From Paenibacillus sp. FSL H7-0357 (lineage in GTDB: Bacteria; Bacillota; Bacilli; Paenibacillales; Paenibacillaceae), in assembly GCF_000758525.1 (NCBI RefSeq), contig NZ_CP009241.1, positions 2,728,001 through 2,792,000 of the forward strand: a stretch of DNA of 64,000 nt, written 5' to 3'. The notes beneath the pieces are model-generated. The model saw only the letters and a list, made by a program, of their open reading frames with translations, had not been told where the DNA came from and made no database searches. The translations under genes and the position numbers were made by a program. Positions 42,801 to 44,507 of the stretch are shown here, in pieces (the first letter of the stretch is position 1; every line of letters begins with the position of its first letter).

Positions 42801-42909
42801 TAAGGCCTTCTTCAAAAAGGAGGTGAAGGCCTGCGTCTTCATCTTCAAGTCATTTTATGGTAAATTAAATGTAAGCATTGCCGGATTTGAGCAGAAGGGA
42901 GACAGGACC

Positions 42910-42954
42910 ATGACAAGTTTCGGCACACAGCTCTATGCAAAGTCTATAGATTAA
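42910..42954 (+). CDS. Leader peptide of the CD3324-family gene (14 residues)
   Basis: ATG 42910 follows AAGGGAG (42895-42901) with 8-base spacing and encodes MTSFGTQLYAKSID before TAA. The codons for residues ~6-13 form two consecutive pairing arms, 42927-42936 and 42937-42949. Each has its own perfect complement downstream. This overlap of a short translated ORF with competing stems is the hallmark of translational attenuation. The stall signal is unknown, and it matches no erm or cat leader I remember. Confidence 0.7.
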   Translation: MTSFGTQLYAKSID

Positions 42955-43071
42955 CAACCGCGGTTGTTTGTATAGAGCTGTAAGCAGATTACCGCATAAG
43001 TTATCTTGTAGAAGATAATGGTTTCTCCTATAGACTTTGCTCCCTTAAAACGTTTACTAATTTTAAGGAGC
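42927..43071 (+). promoter_or_regulatory. Candidate translational attenuator with SD-sequestering hairpin
   Basis: Pairings seen are as follows. ACAGCTCTAT (42927-42936) pairs with ATAGAGCTGT (42972-42981), enclosing the 16-bp palindrome AACAACCGCGGTTGTT (42953-42968). GCAAAGTCTATAG (42937-42949) pairs with CTATAGACTTTGC (43028-43040), a perfect 13-bp match incompatible with the first helix. TTATCTT/AAGATAA lies at 43001-43018. GCTCCCTTAAAA (43039-43050) pairs with TTTTAAGGAGC (43061-43071), which buries the AAGGAG ribosome site of the next gene. Confidence 0.75.
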
Positions 43072-43081
43072 GGGCTATAAA

Positions 43082-43348
43082 ATGAAATATGTTAACGCAG
43101 ATGTGATTCTGCCGGAAGTATTGCTGAAGGAAATTCAGAAATATATTCACGGTGGAATGCTCTATATTCCGAAGCCTGAAGGCGTGCGGAAGAAATGGGG
43201 CGAGAATTCGGGCAGCCGAATGTATCTGACAGCGAGAAACAATGAAATCAGGGAGCAGCATGCCGGCGGAGCTACCGCCCGTGAACTTTCTGAGCAATTT
43301 TGTCTGTCATACGACAGCATCAAAAAAATTATCTACTGTAAAAAATAG
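43082..43348 (+). CDS. CD3324-family small DNA-binding-like protein
   Basis: This is an 88-aa protein of the CD3324 family, which resembles the Mor transcription-activator fold. It begins MKYVNADVILPEVLLKEIQKYI (dimerisation-type helix). It has a basic G-V-R-K-K-W-G-E turn and a C-terminal helix-turn-helix (NNEIREQHAGGATARELSEQFCLSYDSIKKIIYCKK). Its AAGGAG (43065-43070) lies within a stable hairpin, and a leader ORF precedes it, so translation should be conditional. A Mor-like role in binding DNA is an inference. No target is known. Confidence 0.85.
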   Translation: MKYVNADVILPEVLLKEIQKYIHGGMLYIPKPEGVRKKWGENSGSRMYLTARNNEIREQHAGGATARELSEQFCLSYDSIKKIIYCKK

Positions 43349-43360
43349 ATTCACAAAATG

Positions 43361-43393
43361 CCGTATGGGATGAACAGTCCGATGCGGTTTTTT
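43361..43393 (+). terminator. Terminator of the CD3324-family gene
   Basis: CCGTAT-GGA pairs with TCC-ATGCGG (one wobble, one bulge), followed by TTTTTT. Confidence 0.78.
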
Positions 43394-43487
43394 GTGTGCA
43401 ATAATCTCTTTATAAGAGTTGTCTATATATTAGCAAAGCAGCGCTGCCATTATAATAAACGGACATATTCGTTAAGGAGGAAAAATA

Positions 43488-44507
43488 ATGTTCGAAGCTT
43501 TTCGCTGTGATACGGATGAGGATAGAAGGCTTCTGTTGAAGCAGGCAAGGAGCATCGTGATGTGGGCATTGCCGCAGTATGGGCTGGATTGGACCGCAAT
43601 TTCGTATATCGGCCTGTCCGATAACATCACTTATAAAATCGAGACGGCAAGCACCGGAAGCTATTTGCTGCGGATGCACGGGCGATGGATGAGCAATGCA
43701 GAGATTCAGTCGGAACTGCTGCTGCTTCAGGCGCTGAACCGGGTGGAAGGACTAACGATGCCGGAGGGAGTGGCCAATACAGCAGGCACTTATATCCTCA
43801 AGGCAGATTCCGAAGAGGATACCTCTTCCTTGTGGGTAACAGTTACCCGCTGGGTCGAAGGGGAGCATGCTGGCGGGCATATGACGGATCAGAGAATATT
43901 CGATATGGGAGCTATGACGGGAGCCTTGCACATCGCGGCTGCCGGATTCGCCCCTCCGGCTGGGTTTATCCGCCCGGTATGGGGGGAGCAGAGCTTTAAG
44001 CGTGAGATGGATAAGCTTGGACGTTATTACAGCGGGTTTGTATCCGAAACGGGATGGAAGACTTATCAGTTAGCTGCTGCAAAAATCCTCTCCGAACTGG
44101 AGGGCATGGAGGTAAACGAAGATCAATATGGACTGATTCATGGAGATCTGCATAGCGGAAACGTGGTGTTTGCCGGGGAGCAGCCTTATCCGATAGATTT
44201 TGGAAGATGCGGTTACGGGTACTATCTCTACGATCTGGCTGCCGCATTATTGGAGCTTTCCCCTGGGCAGCGCAAGCGGCTTATTGAAGGCTATGCAAGC
44301 CGGAAGAAGCTGGAAAGCGGATATGTACGTAGACTGGAATGTTTTTTTATTATGATTATGATCGGAAATTACAGCCATCATGCCTCGAACCCGGCGGAAG
44401 TCCCCGGACTGCGGGAGCAGCAGCCTTATTCCCAGGCGTATCTCAGGGAATATTTAAAGAGTGCTCCCTTTTTGTTCGAGGTGATTGAGCCCGAGGAAAT
44501 GAAATGA
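43488..44507 (+). CDS. Phosphotransferase of the APH/choline-kinase fold
   Basis: This 339-aa soluble kinase has an ideal AAGGAGG site. Signatures are the catalytic loop YGLIHGDLHSGNVVFAGEQ (HGDxxxxN) and the metal site PIDFGRCGYGYYLYDLAAAL (DFG). The N-lobe is GLSDNITYKIETASTGSYLLRMH. The family resembles bacterial phosphotransferases of the homoserine-kinase-II or fructosamine/spectinomycin-kinase type. The substrate is unknown. It is the second kinase of this fold in the window and is convergent with hisS, only 29 bp apart. Confidence 0.88.
   Translation: MFEAFRCDTDEDRRLLLKQARSIVMWALPQYGLDWTAISYIGLSDNITYKIETASTGSYLLRMHGRWMSNAEIQSELLLLQALNRVEGLTMPEGVANTAGTYILKADSEEDTSSLWVTVTRWVEGEHAGGHMTDQRIFDMGAMTGALHIAAAGFAPPAGFIRPVWGEQSFKREMDKLGRYYSGFVSETGWKTYQLAAAKILSELEGMEVNEDQYGLIHGDLHSGNVVFAGEQPYPIDFGRCGYGYYLYDLAAALLELSPGQRKRLIEGYASRKKLESGYVRRLECFFIMIMIGNYSHHASNPAEVPGLREQQPYSQAYLREYLKSAPFLFEVIEPEEMK

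Follow-up and report, generated by a model that had tools for sequence, protein, structure and literature searches.

This locus raises the question of why a small gene with Mor-like features should be preceded by an RNA that is built like the attenuators of antibiotic resistance genes. We analyzed it within a window of Paenibacillus DNA, meaning the whole stretch of 64,000 nucleotides, for which the original prediction had proposed erm/cat-type attenuation by a leader peptide. The sequence yields an RNA family, two sets of helices, a leader ORF, an operator-like site, and several types of cargo (the neighboring genes presumably under control). We consider it likely that this arrangement is a translational attenuator that responds to ribosome distress and controls a Mor-like activator, which would serve a neighboring resistance-type gene. 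The features of the window copy are summarized in Table 1.

Table 1. Features of the leader RNA, the CD3324 gene, and the adjoining gene (positions in the window)
Feature	Position	Strand	Basis or remark
Shine-Dalgarno (SD) of leader ORF, AGAAGGGAGA	42893..42902	+	7 nt 5′ of ATG
Leader ORF, MTSFGTQLYAKSID, 14 codons	42910..42954	+	open across arms A and B
Arm A	42927..42936	+	10-bp complement of A′
Arm B, GCAAAGTCTATAG, resembles SD flank	42937..42949	+	13-bp complement of B′
P3 5′ strand, CGCGGT	42959..42964	+	P3 pairing across copies
Arm A′	42972..42981	+	exact 10-bp complement of A
P3 3′ strand, ACCGC	42991..42995	+	P3 pairing across copies
Arm B′	43028..43040	+	partner is B or SD flank
P4 hairpin over AAGG of CD3324 SD	43043..43068	+	folding
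SD of CD3324 gene, AAGGAG	43065..43070	+	inside hairpin
CD3324-family gene, 88 aa, predicted HTH	43082..43348	+	NF040785
Intrinsic terminator after CD3324 gene	43353..43395	+	-21.7 kcal/mol, z -5.2, T-rich 3′ side
Proposed operator of CD3324 (conserved, 24 nt)	43409..43432	+	motif match
-10 box, TATAAT	43451..43456	+	18 nt past 24-nt site
APH-fold kinase gene, proposed target	43488..44507	+	PF01636, 9.4e-21

The architecture that the original prediction had read from the letters was recovered in the window. The 14-codon ORF has its own ribosome site, and the 10-bp and 13-bp complements are both exact; in 1,000 dinucleotide shuffles of 42895-43081, stems of at least 10 bp arose in 11 and a 13-bp stem in none. 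The downstream gene belongs to the CD3324 family as stated (NF040785, 109.7 bits against a cut-off of 65). Its SD, which had been described as buried in a hairpin of 11-12 bp whose 5′ arm meets the 13-bp helix, is predicted by folding to lie in a hairpin of up to 19 bp within 43029-43079, both when this segment is folded alone and when the 5′ hairpin is formed. Forcing A:A′ places the SD in this 19-bp hairpin; with B:B′ forced, part of the SD is still covered by a hairpin of 8 bp. The fold of 42880-43090 has a z of -4.05. With A:A′ forced, the ensemble energy was -59.5 kcal/mol, and with B:B′ forced it was -60.0 kcal/mol. The two folds thus have almost the same energy, and the window copy appears poised between them.

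A conserved element of ~158 nt is found upstream of CD3324 genes across relatives. We built a covariance model, R1, from 57 upstream copies. Within the order it matched 182 of 296 genomes, spread over 26 of 48 genera, and within the class 55 of 299 genomes, spread over 20 of 118 genera. The host genome contains three copies of the element and one insignificant match. The copies outside the window lie at G000:C1:2682931-2683082 and 4291404-4291551; one precedes a CD3324 paralogue and the other a FusB-like gene. When we compared the DNA with the 4,227 models of Rfam, nothing reached a gathering threshold in the window and nothing reached E ≤ 1 in 42850-43120. Judged by these comparisons of sequence, the element is a widespread and uncatalogued RNA switch.

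The pairings are well conserved. Among the 57 copies, A:A′ was 99.4% paired over nine pairs, four of which had changed on both sides, and P1 (B:B′) was 97.4% paired. P2 was 78.4% paired, with both sides changed at 6 of 8 pairs, and P3 was 86.7% paired (5 of 7). We also assembled 86 non-redundant copies, including divergent ones from the class Bacilli, and scored double-change cells against controls (shuffles and slid pairings) that ignore kinship. A:A′ (96.4% paired) had 55 such cells versus 1-26 in the slid controls, P1 (97.8%) had 35 versus 1-6, and P3 (87.3%) had 52 versus 0-16. Compensatory changes in homologous leaders, which the original prediction had named as its test, were therefore found in A:A′, P1, and P3. 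P4 was 83% paired, and its 64 double changes were not above the slid controls (3-75); P4ext, the pairing of B′ with the SD flank, was 92.8% paired with zero double changes. Sequestration of the target SD thus finds its support in folding prediction and conserved pairing. RNAalifold chose A:A′ plus the extended SD hairpin.

The two helices had been expected to exclude each other. In the window leader, arms A and B are adjacent; in relatives, A:A′ reaches into the GCAA of arm B, so that the helices do overlap. The RNA family thus has the mutually exclusive helices with compensatory change that characterize an attenuator. Both alternative pairings look, from this comparison, like real constraints, with B′ contested by B and by the SD flank. 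A three-way junction in which the 5′ flank (TCNGCTC) pairs with the 3′ flank of the SD was also considered; its original register was rejected, as 37 of 57 copies were unpaired at one pair. In a shifted register the same pairing is 84% paired and present in the minimum fold of the window, and it might add a third contact to the OFF state.

Two copies depart from the common form. In L028 (2903-3003), a natural short form keeps B:B′ and the SD hairpin, is missing A′ and P3, and has a leader-like ORF that ends early. In L150 (1000-1400), the element is interrupted after P3′ by ~150 nt that precede B′; a CD3324 reading frame follows downstream.

An attenuator of this kind also needs an ORF that runs over the switching arms and has an SD of its own. 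Such an ORF was present in 76 of the 86 non-redundant copies, each with a start codon, an SD score of at least 6, and a frame open through A and B. In 60 shuffles of the upstream 80 nt, such ORFs averaged 11.9, with a maximum of 18. Since the leaders have no codon-level conservation, the ORF count is not backed by independent proof of translation; we infer that they are translated. The frame in which the RNA core is read varies (45 copies use one frame, 25 another, and 14 the third, and 2 have none), and the stops range from just past the start of B to past A′. Codon-position tests in one group of 18 leaders and another of 22 gave no synonymous excess, and on this ground peptide selection on the leaders was dismissed. 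A shared codon run was not evident in the leaders by eye.

These observations bear on attenuation of the erm type, where a particular drug arrests the ribosome on one particular sequence of the leader peptide. Basic-residue motifs such as M-x-[KR]-[FL] are known from macrolide arrest peptides. Of the 22 leaders whose start lies 26 nt ahead of B, 18 open with this motif, at the same codons that are picked out by the ribosome-mask model described below, but it is mostly absent from leaders in other frames. Because the same core is read in three frames and the codon signal is absent from both leader groups, a conserved arrest peptide and a peptide-specific stall are not indicated, and we regard the erm-type reading as quite unlikely. 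The conservation of leader codons that had been anticipated was not borne out. What survives of the proposed erm/cat-type attenuation is the logic of a leader ORF controlling alternative helices, without its specific peptide. Given the three frames and the lack of codon-level conservation, the parsimonious reading seems to be that passage of a ribosome over the leader matters rather than the peptide made.

In order to see where a ribosome on the leader could act, we used a mask model, at equilibrium only, in which all RNA up to the leading edge of the ribosome is covered and the remainder is folded. Across the 86 copies, opening the SD cost 7.06 kcal/mol in the free RNA. The cost fell to 5.87 when the edge stood 2 nt ahead of B and rose to 9.6-10.1 after B was masked. 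Compared with the free RNA, the edge 2 nt before B made opening cheaper by >1 kcal/mol in 49 of 86 copies and costlier in 8; the gain is modest (~1.2 kcal/mol). The window copy required 7.2 kcal/mol when free, 6.6 at the same edge, and up to 13.5 with B covered. The model thus predicts that the SD is most open when arm A is covered and B is free. The leading edge of a ribosome lies 15-16 nt ahead of the P site, and leader codons 3-4 would therefore be the favorable position in the window. A stall at codons 8-12, as originally suggested, should instead mask arm B and close the SD.

The protein encoded behind this SD is a putative DNA-binding regulator. Its predicted structure (pLDDT 86.9, pTM 0.49) has a C-terminal HTH that matches phage Mu Mor and unrelated HTH proteins about equally, and residues 1-36 are barely covered by these matches. 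In sequence, CD3324 stays below the gathering cut-off of Pfam Mor (PF08765; 19.5 versus 24.9 bits), and its structural match to the Mor/C activators of phage Mu does not stand out from those to other HTH folds. A sequence search against solved structures was discarded: a "CAP repeat" chain scored 51.9 bits with single stretches of ~10 bits, and the rest were chance matches.

Downstream of CD3324 genes, we found a 24-nt motif in 81 intergenic regions, with an LL of 316; six shuffled sets, for which both seeds and rounds were fewer, gave 71-82. When the motif was fitted without the window locus, 43409-43432 was its top match in the 64 kb, at 12.9 bits, with a runner-up at 12.3. The site scored below 8 in 31 of the 81 intergenic regions. 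The best -10-like hexamer lay 18-19 nt past the site in 37 of 81 cases overall and in 33 of the 50 where the site scored at least 8. Sites from Paenibacillales (class A) recovered the site from other Bacilli (class B) as the top position of its locus in 10 of 15 cases, with 0.4 expected; the reverse test, from class B to class A, was weak (10 of 66, 1.5 expected). This spacing and conservation suggest that CD3324 is an activator acting at the 24-nt site. A terminator-like hairpin at 42819-42846 separates an AraC-type gene from the leader and would keep the switch on a transcript of its own; it was the sole match in a consensus terminator scan of the leader, lying ahead of the leader itself, and the same scan missed the CD3324 terminator.

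The operator motif also bears on whether the RNA might bind a ligand or a protein, with the ORF incidental or the arms acting as autoregulatory binding sites for CD3324. Such a switch would fit the good conservation of P3 and its loop, which is like that of ligand pockets, and the strong folding of the RNA without a ribosome (z = -4.05). Against it, the SD and ORF are far more frequent than in shuffles, and no Rfam model matches. Autoregulation by CD3324 is countered by the operator motif, which scores 20.8 bits at the cargo site of the window locus and only 5.1 at its next match on the + strand. We therefore find a ligand- or protein-binding switch very unlikely, and we return to the ribosome-distress attenuator.

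The gene that follows CD3324 is variable, and from its sequence it looks often to belong to a resistance-type family. R1 led us to 72 examined loci, where the gene directly downstream was CD3324 in 65, FusB-like in five, and an rRNA methylase in one (L106), with no gene after the element in one (L115). The FusB-like genes were assigned by profile in L094 and L097 and by visible similarity in L146, L147, and L149. L094 scored 77.4 bits with Pfam EF-G-binding_N (cut-off 27.1), and L094 and L097 scored 90-112 bits with the NCBIfam fusB/C/D/F models, under their cut-offs of 375-450. Among 78 neighboring genes, the best 25 of 50 families included APH (17), GNAT (13), EF-G-binding/FusB-like (12), and SpoU methylase (5), followed in the same list by SAM methyltransferase (3), hydrolases (3), AadA (2), and Stf0 (2). 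NCBIfam matches among the neighbors include NshR/TsnR, ANT(9), and chloramphenicol-hydrolase models; all resistance models matched in the profile search, including those at the L094 and L097 loci, fell below their own cut-offs. The second gene of one locus, cut at the locus end, scores 347 bits against tetracycline ribosomal-protection proteins (cut-off 775). The description of the downstream gene as not a resistance gene is therefore incomplete: the gene after CD3324, behind the conserved promoter site, is often of a resistance-type family, and at some loci FusB-like or rRNA-methylase genes follow this RNA immediately. A Listeria EF-G-binding gene was rejected as a family member, as R1 had no match in L154 or L155; by eye, this gene has its own small ORF and inverted repeats on its 5′ side (L155, 1365-1500).

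Cargo unrelated to antibiotics, with the leader sensing amino-acid starvation or a general slowing of ribosomes, would accord with the fact that APH and GNAT folds are not by themselves resistance genes. The window kinase approached the cut-off of no NCBIfam model and is thus not a recognized resistance gene; it is weakly similar to homoserine-kinase-like proteins (34.8 bits, cut-off 271). However, the FusB-like, NshR/TsnR-like, ANT(9)-like, and Tet-protection-like neighbors point to ribosome drugs, and starvation is not favored by the lack of a visible common codon run. We consider this alternative unlikely, though less so than the two above, and prefer a resistance-type role for the cargo.

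We propose the following mechanism for the ribosome-distress attenuator. In the OFF state, A would pair with A′ and B′ with the SD flank, hiding the CD3324 SD. A ribosome held early in the leader would cover A and spare B, which could then capture B′ and free the SD flank, turning the switch ON. The CD3324 protein made would bind the 24-nt site 5′ of the -10 box and activate the neighboring gene, in the window the APH-fold kinase. The signal would be a general slowing or stalling of leader translation rather than a specific peptide, and ribosome-targeting antibiotics are its most plausible cause. The stall, the direction of the switch, the activation, the inducer, and the function are what we infer from the features above.

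Three known systems are instructive here. The fusB gene of pUB101 is described as subject to translational attenuation and as induced by fusidic acid, which stalls ribosomes on a leader (PMC12008383). In its layout, the present RNA resembles the ermC, cat, and fusB attenuators: the leader ORF brings its own SD, the helices exclude one another, and the SD of the next gene is hidden. It directly precedes FusB-like genes in five loci. It is unlike them in that the leader frame and peptide are not conserved, the usual target is a regulator, and one RNA family carries many types of cargo. In E. coli, the toiL uORF of topAI is described as sensing many drugs through a stalled ribosome whose occupancy frees the SD, and a stall anywhere in that uORF is thought likely to be effective (PMC12121999). 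Our system likewise has a single uORF and an SD that would be freed by a stalled ribosome, whereas by the mask model a stall should be effective here only if it leaves arm B uncovered.

The third system, whiB7 of actinobacteria, is preceded by a uORF that senses several classes of ribosome drugs, according to the same source (PMC12121999), and abstracts describe WhiB7 as controlling resistance genes. The present switch is like it in logic, with a leader ORF ahead of a regulator that would serve a resistance-type gene; here, however, the regulator family and the phylum are different, and the proposed target gene is adjacent. The whiB7 leader contains a terminator; in the present leader the consensus scan found none, but that scan also missed the CD3324 terminator. 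RNA family, regulator, and indifference to frame would set the present system apart from fusB, toiL, and whiB7. No description of such control was among the matches listed in open-access PMC text; there, no paper pairs the family names, and the name "CD3324" occurs in two papers, both listed as nematode assays.

A broader claim, to which we give an even chance, is a whiB7-like ribosome-distress regulon of Bacillota, in which a frame-indifferent leader-ORF RNA gates CD3324, the 24-nt site drives an exchangeable resistance-type gene, and CD3324 genes elsewhere in the phylum may use unrelated leader RNAs. If so, many Bacillota would sense ribosome trouble by one RNA and relay it via a tiny activator to a swappable gene, using an attenuator that reads the position of the ribosome instead of a peptide. 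It would name a regulator and an operator for many uncharacterized APH, GNAT, FusB-like, and rRNA-methylase genes, and new resistance enzymes could be found through their promoter and leader.

CD3324 itself is common, with a match in 96 of 100 genomes of the genus. Among the controls, Bacillus subtilis also has a CD3324 gene that scores above the cut-off. Across species genomes we recovered 32 loci, mostly in Paenibacillus and also in Fontibacillus, Bacillus, Lederbergia, Tissierella, and Ruminiclostridium. Sixteen further CD3324 loci were compared with R1, giving no match in 14 and weak matches in two. A strong leader ORF was present in 8 of these 16 (shuffled mean 0.8, maximum 3), and other leader RNAs are therefore suggested.

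Several of these outlying loci have features of their own. Among 13 CD3324 loci from phylum-level genomes (L162-L174), seven have strong leader ORFs with an RNA unlike R1, and at several of the 13, inverted repeats such as GTTGGC/GCCAAC flank the SD of the gene. The CD3324 paralogue at L175 (G000:C1:5952112) has no R1 match, and its next ORF resembles a RarA-type ATPase by eye. In L157 (911-1678) and L159 (1080-1778), the CD3324 domain is fused N-terminally in a protein of 232-255 aa, and the adjoining gene of 234 aa appears APH-like by eye.
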